Source of the DNA: Clostridiaceae bacterium
GTDB taxonomy: Bacteria > Bacillota > Clostridia > UMGS1883 > JAAYMJ01
Direction: 5' to 3'
Length of the DNA: 12,547 nt
NCBI GenBank assembly: GCA_012521455.1
Contig: JAAYMJ010000187.1
Span: 1 to 12,547 of the forward strand
Every line of letters begins with the position of its first letter. The first letter of the stretch is position 1. The notes below the pieces were generated by a model, which was not told where the DNA came from, ran no database searches, and saw only the letters and a list, made by a program, of their open reading frames with translations. This document shows, one piece after another, positions 1,820 to 10,411 of this stretch. The translations under genes and the position numbers were made by a program.

Positions 1820-1848
1820 TTGACAAAAGATTGTGCATGGAATATAAT
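1820..1848 (+). promoter_or_regulatory. Sigma-A promoter of the trp operon
   Basis: The -35 box TTGACA (1820-1825) and -10 box TATAAT (1843-1848) are both perfect consensus, with a spacer of exactly 17 bases. Transcription should start near 1855, which leaves a leader of about 130 nt before trpE and puts the triplet array at the very 5' end of the RNA. So strong a promoter fits an operon controlled mainly by attenuation downstream. Confidence 0.9.
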
Positions 1849-1853
1849 AAAAC

Positions 1854-1899
1854 CAGATGAGATGAGAAGAGCTTAGGAAGATGAGATGAGATTGACGAG
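1854..1899 (+). promoter_or_regulatory. TRAP-type triplet array in the trp leader RNA
   Basis: Seven canonical triplets are visible: GAG at 1859, 1864, 1869, 1883, 1888 and 1897, and UAG at 1874. Most are spaced by two bases, a 5-nt period. Near-cognate triplets fill some other positions: CAG at 1854 (possibly upstream of the transcript start) and AAG at 1878; one slot near 1892-1895 has no clear triplet. TRAP (MtrB), an 11-subunit ring activated by tryptophan, binds 9-11 such G/U-AG repeats separated by 2-3 nt in Bacillus. The array overlaps the 5' arm of the antiterminator and lies before a terminator and trpE, the same order as in the B. subtilis trp leader. The call rests on pattern alone; the binding-protein gene is not in this window. 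Confidence 0.75.
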
Positions 1900-1963
1900 G
1901 TAAAATTTAATACCGCCATACACTTTTTGTGTATCTAAAATTTGTCGTCTCATGTCTTCTTCC
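1876..1963 (+). promoter_or_regulatory. Predicted antiterminator stem-loop of the trp leader
   Basis: The 5' arm made of the triplets can pair with the sequence before and inside the terminator: 1876-1881 (GGAAGA) with 1958-1963 (TCTTCC), 1886-1891 (ATGAGA) with 1948-1953 (TCTCAT), 1894-1896 (GAC) with 1944-1946 (GTC) and 1903-1908 with 1938-1943 (AAATTT). An apical hairpin caps it (ATACAC 1918-1923, GTGTAT 1929-1934, five-T loop). Because it uses 1958-1963, it excludes the terminator. A protein bound to the triplets would block it. The pairing was done by eye, without an energy calculation. Confidence 0.65.
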
Positions 1964-1984
1964 GGGTGGAAGGAGGCTTTTTTT
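1954..1984 (+). terminator. Attenuator terminator before trpE, containing the trpE SD
   Basis: A 10-bp stem (1954-1963 with 1968-1977, two G-U pairs) closes a GGGU loop and is followed by seven T (1978-1984), ending four bases before the trpE ATG. Its 3' arm contains AAGGAGG (1970-1976), the only good Shine-Dalgarno sequence for trpE. Forming the hairpin would therefore end transcription and, in any transcript that reads through, hide the ribosome binding site. Confidence 0.85.
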
Positions 1985-1987
1985 ATT

Positions 1988-3460
1988 ATGTTTTATCCAA
2001 GTCTTAAAGAAGTATGCGAATACGCAAAAGTCTATAACATTATTCCCGTCATGTACGAATACTACGCGGATTTGGACACACCCATAAGCGTGTTTTTAAA
2101 ACTCAAAAAGGATAACAACTGTTTCCTTTTAGAAAGCGTAGAAGGGAGCAAGTCCAAAAAGCGGTATTCATTCATCGGAAGAAATCCCTTTTTAATATTT
2201 AAAGGATACAAAGACAAAGTGGTAATTAAAGATTACAGCGGGGAAGAAAAGGAGTATAAGCTAGACCCCATCGGAAAGCTAAAAGAGCTTATGGAATAAT
2301 ACAAATCCCCCAAAATCCCGGGATTTCCTTCATTTACAGGCGGCGCGGTGGGCTTTTTTTCCTACGACGCCGTAAGGCTTATTGAGGATTTAAAAAATGA
2401 GCCGCGTGAGGATATAAAAATACCGGAACTTCACTTTTTGTTCACCGATGAAATCATCGCCTTTGACCATATAAGGCAAAAACTTATCATCATTGTAAAT
2501 ATGCACGTTAAAGAGGATATAGAAAAACAGTACGAGCGGGCAACCAAAAGGATAATCGAAATACAAAACGAGCTTTATGAAAAGCGGGCGTATGATTTTC
2601 AAAACAAGGACACAAAAAACCGCATACCCCCCCAGATTGAAAGCAATATGACAGAAGATGGGTTTTGCGCTATCGTAAATAAAGCAAAGGAGTATATCCA
2701 AAACGGCGACATTTTCCAGGTGGTGCTCTCACAGAGATTTAAAATAAAAACCAATGTGGACCCCCTTAATGTTTACAGGGCGCTGAGGATTATAAACCCC
2801 TCCCCCTATATGTACTACCTCCAATTCGACGAGTATAAAATCGTGGGGGCATCACCTGAAATGTTAGTGAGGGTTGAAGACGGCATAATTACCACCTGCC
2901 CGATTGCGGGAACCAGAAAGCGGGGAAAAAATGATGAGGAGGACGAAGTTTTAGGAAAAGAACTCCTTTCCGACCCCAAGGAAAACGCGGAACATGTAAT
3001 GCTTGTGGATTTAGGGAGAAATGACATTGGAAAGGTTTCGGAATTTGGCTCGGTTAAAGTCTCAAGGCTTAAATATTTGCAAAGTTTTTCCCATGTAATC
3101 CATTTGGTAAGCGATGTAACAGGTATTTTAAGAAAGGATAAAACCCCCCTTGACGCGCTTTTAGCCACCATTCCCGCGGGCACCTTGACAGGGGCGCCAA
3201 AGGTGAGGGCAATGGAAATCATAGATGAATTGGAAAATGTAAAGCGGGGGGTATATGGCGGGGCAATATGCTATCTTTCCTTTTGCCAAAACCTCGACAG
3301 CTGTATAACAATCAGGACCGCGTTTTTCAAGGACAATTTCGCCCTGATTCAGGCGGGCGCGGGAATTGTGGCAGATTCCATCCCCCACCTGGAATACGAG
3401 GAGACCAAAAACAAGGCAAAAGCCATGATTAAGGCAATTGAGGAGGGGGATTTCATATGA
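1988..3460 (+). pseudogene. trpE: Anthranilate synthase component I, split by an in-frame TAA
   Basis: TrpE combines chorismate and ammonia (from TrpG) to make anthranilate, the first committed step of tryptophan synthesis. The chosen start is ATG 1988, 11 bases after AAGGAGG; an in-frame ATG at 1952 lies inside the terminator and has no SD. Codon 104 (2297-2299) is TAA, yet the same frame continues with full TrpE similarity to 3460, giving 490 residues if read through, near normal length. The stop falls just before the core motif 'FTGGAVGFFSYDAVR'. The first part (103 aa) carries the tryptophan-binding motif LLES (47-50). The rest carries the chorismate-binding domain, with PIAGTRKRG from 305, 'ENAEHVMLVDLGRND', 'IPAGTLTGAPK' and 'IQAGAGIVADS'. 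A restart at GTG 2348 (ORF 2348-3460) would begin inside a conserved strand and is unlikely to give active enzyme. The frame is otherwise clean, which suggests a recent mutation, a sequence error or suppression. The end overlaps trpG by 4 bases (ATGA). Confidence 0.88.
2297..2299 (+). other. Premature stop codon TAA in trpE (codon 104)
   Basis: The local reading is Lys-Glu-Leu-Met-Glu-stop-Tyr-Lys-Ser-Pro. One base change would restore CAA, GAA or AAA. TAA ends several neighbouring genes here (the glycoside hydrolase, trpA, the glycosyltransferase, mraZ, ftsL), so it is a true stop in this organism and not a reassigned codon. Confidence 0.9.
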
Positions 3461-4032
3461 TTTTGATTTTGGATAACTACGATTCTTTTACCTACAATTT
3501 ATATCAATACATTGGCACAATAAACCCCGGTGTTGAGGTTTTTAGAAACGACAAAATCACAGTGGATAAGGTATTATCCAAAAACCCAAGCCACATTATC
3601 CTTTCCCCCGGGCCGGGGTACCCAAAAGATTCGGGCATAATGCTTGATTTAATAAAGGCAGCAGCCCCCCGGATCCCCCTTTTAGGGGTGTGCCTGGGCC
3701 ATCAGGGGATTGGCGAGGCCTTTGGGGGAAGGGTTGTGAAAGCCCCCTATCTCATGCACGGGAAAAGCGATTTTATAAACATAGATACCCGCGTTCCCAT
3801 CTTTTGGGGCTTGCCTGAAAAAATCGAAGTGGGAAGATACCACTCATTGATTTTGGAAGATGTTGGACTTGGGGAATTCGATATAATTGCAAAATCCAAT
3901 GACGGCCTTATTATGGGAATAAAGCATAAAAAATATGACACCTACGGGATCCAGTTTCATCCCGAGTCGGTGCTGACCCCCTTTGGGATTGAAATCATCA
4001 AGAATTTTTTAAGCATTAAAGGGAGGAATTGA
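3457..4032 (+). CDS. trpG: Anthranilate synthase component II (glutamine amidotransferase)
   Basis: This 191-residue class I glutamine amidotransferase hydrolyses glutamine and passes ammonia to TrpE; in some bacteria the same subunit also serves PabB in folate synthesis. The triad is complete: Cys79 in 'LGVCLGHQG', His168 and Glu170 in 'QFHPES'. The oxyanion-loop motif 'LSPGPGYP' is also present. The N-terminus 'MILILDNYDSFTYNLYQY' is typical of the family, which supports ATG 3457. The start overlaps the trpE stop (ATGA) and a GGAGGGGG sequence precedes it, so translation is probably coupled to trpE. If ribosomes leave at the trpE nonsense codon, this coupling could reduce TrpG output. Confidence 0.96.
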   Translation: MILILDNYDSFTYNLYQYIGTINPGVEVFRNDKITVDKVLSKNPSHIILSPGPGYPKDSGIMLDLIKAAAPRIPLLGVCLGHQGIGEAFGGRVVKAPYLMHGKSDFINIDTRVPIFWGLPEKIEVGRYHSLILEDVGLGEFDIIAKSNDGLIMGIKHKKYDTYGIQFHPESVLTPFGIEIIKNFLSIKGRN

Positions 4033-4033
4033 A

Positions 4034-5059
4034 ATGATAATCAAGGAAGCTATAAAAAAATTAGTTGACAGGATAGATTTATCAGAAAGCGAAGCGTATC
4101 AGGTAATGGACGAGGTATTGGACGGGGGGGCAACGGAAGCGCAGGTGGCGGCCTTTTTAATCTCTTTGAGAAATAAGGGCGAAAGCATTTCCGAAATCAC
4201 GGGCTGCGCTAAAAAAATGAAGGAAAAAGCCATAAATATAAAGCCCAATTTAAAGGAATACATCGACTGCGTGGGAACGGGCGGGGACGGCACAAACACC
4301 TTTAACATTTCCACCACCGCCGCCTTTGTGATTGCCGCCGCGGGAGTACCCATCGCAAAGCACGGAAACCGGGCGATTTCTTCAAAAAGCGGCAGCGCGG
4401 ACTTGCTTGAGGCATTGGGCATAAACATAAACCTTTCTCCCGAAAATGTTAAAAAATGCGTGGAAGAAATCGGGATTGGGTTTATGTTCGCCAAAAACTT
4501 CCACCCCCACATGAAAACCGTGGCGAAAGTAAGAAGCGAACTAAATATAAGAACCATATTTAACATCCTCGGCCCCATCTCAAACCCGTCAGGGGCAAAG
4601 TACCAGGTAGTCGGCGTGTATAACCCGAACTTAACACATCCCATAGCCAACGCAATGCTTAATATGGGAGTGGAAAAGGGCATGGTTATAAGCGATATGA
4701 ACACGGGCATGGACGAATTTTCAACTTTTGGGGAAACAAAGGTTTCTGAAATCAAAGAAGGAAAAGTCATTGACTATATCGCAAAGCCCGAGGACTTCGG
4801 CATTGCGCGGGCCAGCCTTTCCGACATAAAAGGCGGCTCAGCTTATGAAAACAGGGAATTTACCCTGTCGGTACTACAAGGGGAAAAATCCCCCAAGCGG
4901 GATATAGTGGTGCTAAACGCCGCCTGCGCGATTTACGCGGCGGGAAAGGCGGGAAGCATTAAAGAGGGGATTGAAATGGCCGAGTATGCCATTGACTCCA
5001 ACAAAGCCTATGAAAAAATGCTTGCGCTAAAAAAATTAAGCGGGGAGCTTGCGGTATGA
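4034..5059 (+). CDS. trpD: Anthranilate phosphoribosyltransferase
   Basis: TrpD transfers the phosphoribosyl group of PRPP to anthranilate. The 341-residue length is normal. The PRPP-binding glycine loop GTGGDGTNTFNIST starts at residue 81 and the KHGNR anthranilate/PRPP motif is at 109-113. The helical N-terminal domain ('SEAYQVMDEVL...ATEAQVAAFLISLR') is also typical. The start ATG 4034 is one base after the trpG stop, with GGGAGG (4021-4026) seven bases before it. The stop overlaps trpC by 4 bases. A 223-codon open frame on the opposite strand (4099-4770) is a shadow of this gene. Confidence 0.97.
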   Translation: MIIKEAIKKLVDRIDLSESEAYQVMDEVLDGGATEAQVAAFLISLRNKGESISEITGCAKKMKEKAINIKPNLKEYIDCVGTGGDGTNTFNISTTAAFVIAAAGVPIAKHGNRAISSKSGSADLLEALGININLSPENVKKCVEEIGIGFMFAKNFHPHMKTVAKVRSELNIRTIFNILGPISNPSGAKYQVVGVYNPNLTHPIANAMLNMGVEKGMVISDMNTGMDEFSTFGETKVSEIKEGKVIDYIAKPEDFGIARASLSDIKGGSAYENREFTLSVLQGEKSPKRDIVVLNAACAIYAAGKAGSIKEGIEMAEYAIDSNKAYEKMLALKKLSGELAV

Positions 5060-5817
5060 TTTTGGATGAAATTTGCAAAAAAAAGAAAGGGCGGGTTGAG
5101 GAAGCCAAAAGAAGGGCGCCCCTTGAAACCTTAGCCCTTGACAGGACCCCCCTGGATTTTAAAGAGGCAATTTCAAAAAGCATATCAATAATTGCCGAAA
5201 TCAAAAAAGCTTCCCCTTCAAAAGGTGTAATCAGGAAGGATTTTTCCCCCCAAGATATTGCCAAAAGCTATATGGAAGCAAAAGTTGAAGCCTTAAGCAT
5301 ACTCACCGAGGAAGACTACTTTTTGGGAAGCGTTGATTATTTAAAAAAGGTGAGGGAAATCACAAACATCCCCATTTTAAGGAAGGATTTTATAATTGAC
5401 GAATACCAGGTTTATGAGTCCAAAGCAATCGGGGCGGACGCAATACTTTTGATTGCGGCAGTTTTGGATGATGATAAACTAAAGAAATTTTATACCCTCG
5501 CAAAAAACTTAGGCCTCTCCGTTTTATTGGAAGTACACGACAAAGAGGAAATGGAGAGGGCGGCAAGTATTGGCGCGGAAATAATCGGGATAAACAACCG
5601 TGATTTAAAGACTTTCAGCGAGGATATAAAAACCACCGGGCGTCTTTTAAATTACGCCCCCGAAGGCGCAATTATAGTTTCAGAAAGCGCCATCAGGACA
5701 CCAAATGATTTAAAATACCTCAAAAATTTGGGGGTGAGCGCCGCGCTTATTGGCGAGGCCTTCATGCGGCAGGATGATATAAAAGAGGCAGTACGCAATT
5801 TAAGGAGCATGGTATGA
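5056..5817 (+). CDS. trpC: Indole-3-glycerol phosphate synthase
   Basis: This single-domain (beta/alpha)8 enzyme of 253 residues closes the indole ring of 1-(2-carboxyphenylamino)-1-deoxyribulose 5-phosphate with loss of CO2. The catalytic region is complete: 'IIAEIKKASPSKG' with Glu48 and Lys50, 'ILRKDF' with the general acid Lys110, 'GINNRDLKTF', and 'SESAI' in the phosphate-binding part. It is separate from trpF, unlike the fused TrpCF of E. coli. The ATGA overlap with trpD and GGGGAG eight bases before the start indicate coupled translation. Confidence 0.97.
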   Translation: MILDEICKKKKGRVEEAKRRAPLETLALDRTPLDFKEAISKSISIIAEIKKASPSKGVIRKDFSPQDIAKSYMEAKVEALSILTEEDYFLGSVDYLKKVREITNIPILRKDFIIDEYQVYESKAIGADAILLIAAVLDDDKLKKFYTLAKNLGLSVLLEVHDKEEMERAASIGAEIIGINNRDLKTFSEDIKTTGRLLNYAPEGAIIVSESAIRTPNDLKYLKNLGVSAALIGEAFMRQDDIKEAVRNLRSMV

Positions 5818-6422
5818 CAAAGGTAAAAATTTGCGGGATTTGGGAATTTGAAACCATTGATATTTTAAACGAATGTTTGCCCGACTATATTGGCTTTGTA
5901 TTCGCGAAAAGCCCCAGGCAGGTAACGGAGGATCGGGCAAAGGAATTAAAAGGGCGCCTTCACCCACAAATTAAAACCGCGGGGGTTTTTGTCAACGAAA
6001 GTATTGAAAAAATCTTAAAAATAATAGATAATGTAAACATTGACGCCATCCAGCTGCATGGGGACGAAGATGACTCATATATAAAAAAGCTAAAAGAAAA
6101 AACCAAAGCGGAAATCTGGAAAGCCGTAAGGGTAAAAGAGGGAATGAGTTTGGATTTTTCAAAAATACCTGCCGACAGAATCCTGCTTGACACTTACAAA
6201 ACGGGCGTGTTTGGCGGAAGCGGCGAAAAATTTGACTGGTCCCTTGTTGATGTAAAAATTTATAAAGACATAATTTTAGCGGGCGGGATAAATTTGGATA
6301 ATGTTTCGCAAGCTTTGAAACTATCCCCCTACATGCTGGATATCTCAAGCGGGGTTGAAAGTAACGGGCGCAAGGATGGCGGAAAAACTGCAAAAATCAT
6401 AAAGCTGATTCGAGGAGAGTAG
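5814..6422 (+). CDS. trpF: Phosphoribosylanthranilate isomerase
   Basis: TrpF carries out the Amadori rearrangement of phosphoribosylanthranilate, the step between TrpD and TrpC. The 202-residue length is normal. Both catalytic residues are in the expected places: Cys7 in 'VKICG' (general base) and Asp126 in 'RILLDT' (general acid). The phosphate-binding '[10 protein letters not shown]' and the C-terminal '[16 protein letters not shown]' are also clear. After KICG the usual Arg/Thr-type residue is Trp ('[10 protein letters not shown]'), a mild oddity. The start ATG 5814 overlaps the trpC stop, with AAGGAG (5802-5807) six bases before it. Confidence 0.96.
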
Positions 6423-6426
6423 GACC

Positions 6427-7617
6427 ATGAAAAAAGGACGATACGGGGAATTCGGCGGGCAGTACGCCCCTGAAACCCTTATGAACGCGCTATCAGAACT
6501 TGAGGCTGAATTTGAAAAGGCCATAAAAGATGAAAAATTCTGGGAAGAATTTAATTTTTATTTAAGGGAATACGCAAACCGCCCTTCCAATTTGTACTTC
6601 GCAAAACGCATGACCGAAGACTTGGGCGGATGTAAAATCTATTTAAAACGCGAGGATTTAAACCACACAGGCGCCCATAAAATCAATAACGTGCTGGGCC
6701 AAATTATTCTAGCCAAAAGAATGGGAAAGAAAAAGGTAATCGCCGAAACAGGGGCAGGCCAGCACGGGGTTGCCACAGCTACGGCGGCGGCACTTTTCGG
6801 CATGGAATGTGAAGTGTTTATGGGGGAAGAGGACACAAAGCGGCAGGAACTAAACGTGTTTAGGATGAACCTTTTAGGCGCGAAAGTTACCCCCGTAAAA
6901 AGCGGCACGGGGACACTAAAGGACGCCTGCAACGAGGCTATGCGGGCATGGGCGGAACACGCCGGGGACACCTTCTATGTGCTGGGCTCCGCCGTAGGCC
7001 CCCATCCGTACCCTGCCATTGTTAAGGAGTTTCAAAGGGTAATAAGCCGTGAAATGAAGGAGCAAATATTAGAAAAAGAGGGAAGGCTCCCTGATTATGT
7101 AATCGCCTGCGTAGGCGGCGGGAGCAACGCCATAGGAAGCTTTGCCGAATTCATCGGTGAGCCGTCCGTGAAACTAATCGGCGCGGAAGCCGCGGGGAAA
7201 GGCATTGACACGCCGTATCACGCCGCAACAATCTCAAAAGGGGAAGTGGGGGTACTCCATGGCATGAAGTCCCTCTTTTTGCAGGACGAATACGGCGGTA
7301 TCCAGGAGGTATATTCCATTTCCGCGGGCCTTGACTACCCCGGTATCGGGCCTGAACATGCTTACCTTCACAAAACAGGGAGGGCGCAGTATTATCCCGT
7401 AACCGATAAAGAGGCGGTTGACGCTTTTTGCTATCTAACCAAAACCGAGGGGATAATCCCCGCTGTTGAAAGCGCCCACGCGGTGGCGCAGGCAATAAAG
7501 ATGGCGCCAAAACTTCCAAAGGATGAAATAATGATAATCTGCCTTTCCGGCAGGGGCGACAAGGACGTTTATTCCGTAGCGAAATATTTGGGGGTAGAGT
7601 TTAATGAACAGGATTGA
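6427..7617 (+). CDS. trpB: Tryptophan synthase beta chain
   Basis: TrpB condenses indole with serine using pyridoxal phosphate and works as an alpha2-beta2 complex with TrpA. At 396 residues it is a standard-length TrpB1-type chain. The PLP lysine is Lys85 in 'HTGAHKINN', the cofactor phosphate loop is GGGSNAIG from residue 230, and '[14 protein letters not shown]' is present. The N-terminus '[13 protein letters not shown]' is the family signature and supports ATG 6427. It lies 4 bases after trpF with AGGAGAG and TAGGA before it. Its end overlaps trpA by 14 bases. Confidence 0.98.
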
Positions 7618-8392
7618 TAAAATGTTTTTGGATAAAAAGGGGCAAAAGGTTTTCATCCCCTTTATCACCGCGGGGGACCCTGATATTGGCACAACCATGG
7701 ATTTAGTCTTTGCCATGGAAGAGGCGGGCGCCGACTTAATCGAGCTGGGGGTACCCTTTTCCGACCCCATTGCGGAAGGCCCCGTTATTCAGGAGGCAAA
7801 CGCAAGGGCGCTAAAAAACGGGGTGAATTTGGATATAATCTTTGACGCGGTTGGGAAAATCAGAAAAAAAAGCCAAATCCCCCTTGTGTTTTTAATGTAT
7901 TATAACAGCCTCTTTAAATACGGGCTTGAAAGGTTTTTTAAAGCCTGCAAGGAATATGGGATTGACGGGGTAATTATCCCTGATTTGCCCTATGAGGAAT
8001 CTGGCGAAATAGCGGAATATGAAGAAAAGTACAATGTGTACCAGATATCACTAATTTCCCCCACAAGCCATGACAGGATTGAAAAAATCGCAAAATCCGC
8101 CAAAGGGTTTTTGTACTGCGTGTCCTCTTTGGGGGTAACGGGCGCACGCGATAAATTTGAAACGGACTTTAAGGCGTTTTTTGATGAGATAAATAAGTAC
8201 GCCAAAATCCCAAAATGTTTGGGCTTTGGTATTAAAGATGAAACGCAGGCTAAGCTTTTGAGGGAATACGCCGACGGAATAATTGTGGGAAGCGCGGTGG
8301 TTGCGCTGATTAAAGAGGGGAAAGATAAGGAAGAAAAAATACGCTTGGTAAAAGAATATGTATCCAAAATGGCAAAAGCCACAAAGGAGTAA
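7604..8392 (+). CDS. trpA: Tryptophan synthase alpha chain
   Basis: TrpA cleaves indole-3-glycerol phosphate and channels the indole to TrpB. The 262-residue (beta/alpha)8 protein has the catalytic Glu47 (Glu49 in Salmonella) in '[11 protein letters not shown]'. The second catalytic acid, Asp60 of Salmonella in 'SDPLADGP', is Glu58 here ('SDPIAEGP', codon 7775-7777). I believe this AEGP form also occurs in other clostridial TrpA proteins, but I could not check it. Other family parts, such as '[13 protein letters not shown]', '[11 protein letters not shown]', 'SSLGVTGAR' and 'GFGIKDETQ', are normal. The start is within the end of trpB, so translation is coupled; its SD is weak (GGGGGTAGAG). 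It is the last trp gene and is followed by a terminator. Confidence 0.96.
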
Positions 8393-9931: not shown

Positions 9932-9971
9932 AAAGTGGTTTAAAGTGGAGTAAAGTGTAACGAAGTGGAGG
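9932..9971 (+). promoter_or_regulatory. MraZ-type operator: four direct repeats with 10-bp period
   Basis: Four head-to-tail 10-base units are seen: AAAGTGGTTT (9932), AAAGTGGAGT (9942), AAAGTGTAAC (9952) and GAAGTGGAGG (9962). MraZ proteins are known to bind short tandem repeats with about one helical turn period before their own gene (TGGGN in E. coli, AAAGTGKCWN in Mollicutes). The spacing, position and AAAGTG core match this. The last unit runs into the mraZ SD (GGAGG 9967-9971), so binding at the DNA would cover the end of the leader. Confidence 0.82.
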
Positions 9972-9979
9972 TGGCATGG

Positions 9980-10411
9980 TTGTTAGCAGGTGAATACAGG
10001 CACTCTGTGGACGCAAAAGGCAGGATAATCATGCCATCAAAATTCCGCGAAGAACTAGGCGAATCTTTTGTCGTAACAAAGGGGTTTGAAGGCTGCCTTG
10101 TGGCGTATTCCAACGAAGAATGGGAGAAATTTGTTGAAAAATTGCGCACACTGCCTGAAAACCAAAAGAACGTAAGAAGATTGTTAAGGATACTCTTATC
10201 GGGCGCCTCTACCGTGGAAGTGGACAAGCAGGGAAGACTGCTTTTGCCGCAGAACTTAAGGGAGGCGGCCAACATTACCAAAGAAGTTACCATCATCGGG
10301 GTTTTAAATAAAGTTGAAATCTGGGACAGCGAAGCATGGCAAAGATACACTGAAGATGAAGAAGGCTTGTCCTTAGAAGACGCGGCTGAATCCATAGATA
10401 TGCTCTTTTAA
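9980..10411 (+). CDS. mraZ: Transcriptional regulator MraZ
   Basis: MraZ is a ring-forming DNA-binding protein with two AbrB-like SpoVT/MraZ domains that regulates the division and cell wall cluster. Both copies of the DxxGR motif are visible: DAKGR (11-15) with 'MPSKFREELG', and DKQGR (82-86) with 'LLPQNLREAA'. I chose the TTG start at 9980, eight bases after GGAGG, because it yields the usual 143 residues beginning 'MLAGEYRHSVDAKGR'. The longer GTG 9965 start would place the SD inside the coding region. It is the first gene of the dcw cluster and lies 12 bases before rsmH. Confidence 0.95.
   Translation: MLAGEYRHSVDAKGRIIMPSKFREELGESFVVTKGFEGCLVAYSNEEWEKFVEKLRTLPENQKNVRRLLRILLSGASTVEVDKQGRLLLPQNLREAANITKEVTIIGVLNKVEIWDSEAWQRYTEDEEGLSLEDAAESIDMLF

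Follow-up and report, generated by a model that had tools for sequence, protein, structure and literature searches.

The stretch of DNA analyzed here, 12,547 nucleotides from a Clostridiaceae bacterium (hereafter the window), carries a tryptophan operon in which a consensus promoter is followed by a row of (G/U)AG triplets, an intrinsic terminator and then the genes in the order trpEGDCFBA. The features are listed below by position in the window.

1820..1848, + strand: sigma-70 promoter, TTGACA-17-TATAAT, 12 of 12 consensus positions
1859..1899, + strand: TRAP-type array, with GAG at 1859, 1864 and 1869, UAG at 1874, AAG at 1878, GAG at 1883 and 1888, an empty slot at about 1893, and GAG at 1897
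1876..1898, + strand: predicted antiterminator 5' arm, the later half of the array (ViennaRNA, leader to 1963, -32.6 kcal/mol)
1942..1963, + strand: predicted antiterminator 3' arm, whose last ten bases are the terminator 5' arm
1954..1984, + strand: intrinsic terminator, with a 10-pair stem (1954-1977, -13.5 kcal/mol), loop GGGT, then T7 (1978-1984)
1972..1976, + strand: GGAGG, the likely trpE Shine-Dalgarno sequence, within the terminator 3' arm and 11 nt before the ATG at 1988
1988..3460, + strand: trpE frame, interrupted by an in-frame TAA (2297-2299)
3457..8392, + strand: trp genes downstream of trpE, trpG to trpA
3457-4032, + strand: trpG (GATase)
4034-5059, + strand: trpD (Glycos_transf_3)
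5056-5817, + strand: trpC (IGPS)
5814-6422, + strand: trpF (PRAI)
6427-7617, + strand: trpB (PALP)
7604-8392, + strand: trpA (Trp_syntA)

The start of trpE is placed at the ATG at 1988 to agree with the position at which the gene begins in relatives. An uninterrupted protein of 502 amino acids in the protein database (P0001) has 100% identity to the trpE product over the 386 residues searched; an intact copy of trpE therefore exists, and the in-frame stop may be an assembly error or a strain variant. Ahead of the operon, positions 1-1698 form an open frame with no NCBIfam match at E 0.001, and beyond it mraZ (9965-10411) opens an apparent division and cell-wall cluster.

The -10 box ends at 1848 and the array begins about 11 nt downstream, with a transcript start predicted from promoter spacing at about 1854-1857. 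The first-pass annotation, made from the sequence alone, had described seven exact triplets, mostly at a 5-nt period, at the 5' end of the trp transcript, with imperfect slots near 1878 and 1892-1895, and this description is accurate. The exact triplets follow one another in steps of 5, 5, 5, 9, 5 and 9 nt, each 9-nt step concealing one slot: the first of these is AAG, NAG with N = A being a weaker triplet, and the second is empty (TGA/TTG). Over nine slots the array amounts to seven (G/U)AG and one AAG, which agrees with the about 7-11 (G/U)AG triplets, 2-3 nt apart, of a TRAP-regulated trp attenuator leader. RNAs with seven or more repeats are stably bound by TRAP in vitro, according to a passage of PMC4027176, so that seven to eight contacts would be enough in principle and the imperfect slots, for which a ring with fewer contacts had been suggested as one explanation, do not require a smaller ring.

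Chaining (G/U)AG triplets at steps of 4-6 or 9-10 nt yields a maximum of seven for the window. Among 300 dinucleotide shuffles of the whole window the longest chain was five (14 of 300), as it was among 5000 shuffles of 1800-1999 (8 of 5000), and none of either set reached seven. The pattern KAG-NN-KAG-NN-KAG-NN-KAG, of which 0.01 occurrences are expected in the window, has a single match in the 1,815,236-base assembly, namely the trpE leader array, and its reversed control has none; a stricter five-triplet pattern finds no match in this genome.

Predicted competing structures in the leader

The whole leader folds much better than its shuffles (z-score -4.66), and in the predicted folds an antiterminator that overlaps the array excludes the terminator. 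The pair probability of the terminator rises from 0.03-0.07 in the free leader to about 0.99 when 1859-1899 are forced unpaired (ViennaRNA), a shift that is partly built in because antiterminator and terminator share arms. At a leader length of 1977 the free fold also permits the terminator, the first triplets then being paired differently, and the outcome therefore depends on folding order. The terminator hairpin contains the likely trpE Shine-Dalgarno sequence, and from this arrangement a double role can be predicted, with a single hairpin that may stop transcription as well as translation.

TRAP and its genomic setting

A TRAP gene is found in the same genome (G000:C362), scoring 127.4 bits against the Pfam family PF02081 (cut-off 21.3) and 131.8 bits against the NCBIfam equivalog 'trp RNA-binding attenuation protein MtrB' (cut-off 117), and all 15 PDB sequences that its product matches at E 0.001 are TRAP/MtrB. 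The residues which we take to be the tryptophan and RNA contacts, in B. subtilis numbering, are conserved in it, and there is no sign of the divergent TRAP that had been offered as a second explanation for the imperfect slots. Across 109 related TRAP loci K56 is invariant, position 37 is K in 105 and position 58 is R in 98, while position 51, V here and H in Bacillus, varies among relatives (H in 59, N in 33 and V in 5).

Of the two proteins that the first-pass annotation had associated with such an array, mtrB is present above both the Pfam and NCBIfam cut-offs, and anti-TRAP (PF15777) has no match above its cut-off of 32 in the assembly, which is 81.75% complete; the only candidate, at 24.8 bits inside a 395-aa open frame, was rejected. 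Within the window no Rfam family reaches its threshold, and a T-box (RF00230) ahead of trpE was sought and rejected, with no match in the window, in the same 81.75% complete genome at E 0.001 or in the trpE locus (L111) at E 0.01. No TrpP transporter that might serve as a second target was found in the genome at E 0.001.

The mtrB gene lies between a dnaE-like gene and pfkA (644-1125 of locus L001), beside a 67-aa protein of no Pfam family. At least one of these neighbors (the dnaE-like C-terminus, the 67-aa protein or pfkA) stands beside mtrB on the same strand in 78 of 110 TRAP loci, a count that includes the locus itself and some duplicates of one genome; the neighborhood was not seen in the remaining 32, among them many from Paenibacillus and family f18. 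The recurring neighborhood, rather than a species tree, suggests that mtrB may be old in Clostridia and may have been lost where T-boxes serve trpE.

Arrays and T-boxes among relatives

TRAP is present in 33 of 147 sampled genomes, including this one, and is thus no rarity among the relatives, which corrects the first-pass description of TRAP control as best known in Bacillus and a limited set of other Firmicutes. A trpE match was found in 59 genomes, 26 with TRAP and 33 without, and we compared the trpE leaders of all 26 TRAP-bearing and 29 of the 33 TRAP-less genomes (G018, G082, G105 and G120 were left out), applying a single rule of at least four triplets at steps of 4-6 nt. Such chains occur in 14 of the 26 TRAP-bearing leaders, the window included, versus none of the 29 TRAP-less ones (Fisher p 2.2e-6, only a guide since the genomes are related). 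Beyond these 14, two more TRAP-bearing leaders (G098, G100) hold broken or short arrays as judged by eye; in all, twelve TRAP-bearing genomes have no four-triplet chain before trpE, and the trpE leader L173 (G047) has no array.

A T-box precedes trpE in 26 of the 29 TRAP-less leaders; the remaining three (L129, L134, L192) are cut short by the ends of their contigs. The contrast with T-boxes that the first-pass annotation had drawn for clostridial trp operons therefore stands, as does its expectation that the triplets would be conserved in related species, provided that these bear TRAP. Among the TRAP-bearing leaders ten of 26 have a T-box before trpE, two of them (G071, G098) with an array as well, and two others (G045, G054) have neither. 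Some of the T-boxes, at 75-92 bits, fall short of the 93-bit gathering score of Rfam, although their E-values are 1e-14 or better. In the window's own order, nine TRAP-less genomes have trpE. Six of these carry a T-box, in two the leader is truncated by the contig end, and the ninth is G018, one of the four left out. In a tree of 30 TrpE sequences that of the window joins families f12 and f18, both array-bearing (support 98/93), apart from the T-box TrpE of its order, on a branch flagged as long; in that tree the 'Tbox' label on G010 and G023 is no result, as both leaders run off their contigs.

Several individual loci may be recorded here. In L177 and L150 (G071) and in L178 (G098) a T-box upstream of trpE is followed about 90-110 nt on by triplets of the TRAP type that cover the ribosome site of this gene, so that tRNA and tryptophan control are apparently stacked in the predicted leaders of these two genomes. 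L131 (G146) and L132 (G030) are TrpE matches with an in-frame stop (TGA and TAA, respectively); both genomes have TRAP, yet a T-box lies before trpE. G001, from the window's order, has TRAP, but no trpE match and no five-triplet array, and its sole four-triplet match is inside a reading frame.

Genome-wide, five-triplet arrays occur in 21 of 33 TRAP-bearing versus 9 of 114 TRAP-less genomes (p 1.5e-10), and a reversed control leans the same way but more weakly (11 of 33 versus 16 of 114, p 0.02). With overlapping registers counted, there are 78 matches versus 18 for the control in TRAP-bearing genomes and 16 versus 17 in TRAP-less ones. We inspected 30 array loci, one per genome. Among the 21 from TRAP-bearing genomes, 18 precede tryptophan genes (seven trpE, four trpP-like, four trpB-like, one trpB, one trpG-like and one trpD), with the gene family confirmed for 16, seven as trpE matches and nine through family scans, and named by eye for L164 and L166; the other three are L143 (methyltransferase-like), L154 and L155. 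None of the nine loci from TRAP-less genomes precedes a tryptophan gene, three being short tandem repeats, five lying inside other frames and one (L170) being neither. As a general detector the four-triplet pattern proved too weak, giving 21 matches versus 56 for the control in 11 other TRAP-bearing genomes.

A predicted TRAP attenuator and its alternatives

With a TRAP gene in the same genome, the row of GAG/UAG triplets is very probably a TRAP binding site, and we read it, with a probability of roughly 0.92, as the predicted site at which tryptophan-activated TRAP acts in a transcription attenuator of trpEGDCFBA. The organism thus appears to switch tryptophan synthesis in the way of Bacillus and not by the tRNA-sensing T-box of its near relatives. 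From the computed evidence, which comprises the triplet sites, a gene for TRAP, the competing folds and the occurrence in relatives, we infer TRAP binding, its dependence on tryptophan, termination and the effect on translation. Under tryptophan shortage, positions 1876-1898 in the later half of the array would pair with 1942-1963 as the antiterminator, and RNA polymerase would read on. With ample tryptophan, TRAP would wrap the nascent array and prevent the antiterminator, the hairpin 1954-1977 and its U tract would end transcription, and any transcript that escaped would have its trpE Shine-Dalgarno sequence held in this hairpin.

This reading is supported because the array greatly exceeds chance expectation and has no second copy in the assembly, TRAP is encoded in the same genome with its contact residues conserved, promoter and terminator are rightly placed, the terminator comes to dominate once the array is unpaired, chains of four or more triplets are, among the trpE leaders compared, confined to TRAP-bearing genomes (14 of 26 versus 0 of 29), 18 of the 21 array loci inspected in other TRAP-bearing genomes stand ahead of tryptophan genes, and no T-box was found in this genome. 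The proposal of TRAP-type control of a clostridial trp leader is accordingly supported by the TRAP gene and by the recurrence of arrays in TRAP-bearing relatives. Counting against it are the seven to eight contacts, compared with 11 in B. subtilis, the 12 of 26 TRAP-bearing genomes without a chain and the ten with a T-box before trpE, the partly built-in fold shift together with the alternative fold at 1977, and the in-frame stop in trpE of this assembly.

That a purine-rich sequence should resemble a TRAP site by chance is conceivable given how short the triplets are, and four of them alone mean little, as the excess of control matches in the 11 TRAP-bearing relatives illustrates; but no shuffle reached seven, the lone four-triplet match in 1.8 Mb precedes trpE with none in the control, and both the TRAP gene and the similar leaders of relatives make coincidence very unlikely. 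It is somewhat easier to imagine, though still improbable, that TRAP binds and acts only on translation, the hairpin locking the trpE Shine-Dalgarno sequence and termination being minor. The GGAGG does lie in the 3' arm of the hairpin, and the corresponding hairpin of the relatives L117 and L118, having no U tract, can act only by locking the ribosome site; here, however, the stem of -13.5 kcal/mol runs directly into T7, as in a standard intrinsic terminator. Control by another leader device, whether a T-box or a leader peptide read by the ribosome, we regard as extremely unlikely. T-boxes do stand before trpE in most TRAP-less relatives, but the searches of window, genome and trpE locus described above returned none, and the sole TGG in 1855-1987, at 1967, falls in the terminator, with no separate Trp-codon leader peptide seen.

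TRAP attenuation, a textbook case, is understood in detail in Bacillus, and T-box leaders sense uncharged tRNA, not tryptophan. Trp T-boxes resemble the present leader as devices before trpE and are found in relatives of the same order; they differ in that none was detected in the window or its genome. The closer likeness is to the B. subtilis trpEDCFBA attenuator with TRAP (mtrB), which shares the leader row of (G/U)AG, an antiterminator overlapped by the array, a competing terminator and TRAP in the genome. In the parts of PMC4027176 that deal with the B. subtilis leader, it has 11 repeats, an antiterminator at +60 to +111 and a terminator at +108 to +133, and a section of PMC11255114 describes the trpE Shine-Dalgarno sequence as sequestered by a separate hairpin downstream of the TRAP site, apart from the terminator. 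In contrast, the window has seven to eight triplets, the first of them about 4 nt downstream of the predicted transcript start, together with trpG inside the operon, a terminator that itself contains the Shine-Dalgarno sequence and no anti-TRAP above the cut-off. The trp leaders of TRAP-bearing relatives in families f12, f18 and f54 likewise have a promoter-adjacent array that pairs with sequence ahead of trpE, and a hairpin at the trpE ribosome site. They differ in that L117 and L118 have a separate terminator-like hairpin upstream of their Shine-Dalgarno hairpin, and in L113-L115 the Shine-Dalgarno sequence is overlapped by a weak hairpin with U6, whose computed energy in L113 and L114 is -4.4 to -4.9 kcal/mol; the window hairpin, with U7, is the strongest of those compared.

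Because our coverage of the literature was partial and older reviews list TRAP in a few non-Bacillus Firmicutes, we make no claim of a first report. Among the titles and abstract openings surveyed on TRAP outside Bacillus none treats TRAP in Clostridia, although such a survey cannot exclude one; a passage of PMC3766115 names TRAP for Bacillales, and a figure in PMC2494555 marks 'TRAP protein is present' for some Firmicutes. The TRAP-attenuated trp operon belongs to a known type, and what a specialist may find new is its spread, its exchange with T-boxes and the condensed hairpin. We lean slightly toward the view that TRAP is an old clostridial regulator, often in a dnaE-mtrB-pfkA neighborhood, that swaps with T-boxes before trpE between families and within the window's order, with attenuation condensed here into a single terminator and Shine-Dalgarno-lock hairpin and driven by a short array that lies at the extreme 5' end, no anti-TRAP being detected, and with a T-box and then a TRAP-type array stacked ahead of trpE in another family (G071 and G098), the array covering the ribosome site. 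If the pattern holds, TRAP attenuation would be spread through Clostridia, with a regulon of trpE, trpB, trpB-like, trpG-like, trpD and trpP genes; the visible exchange with T-boxes would form a natural series on swapping a tryptophan-sensing regulator for one that senses uncharged tRNA; and the single terminator and ribosome-site hairpin would be a simpler attenuator than that of Bacillus. In one family short arrays of four or five triplets stand before trpE, trpD and trpB (L112/L218, L211 and L216 in G073; L168 and L116 in G100), and in G073 the four-triplet pattern has four real matches versus three for the control.
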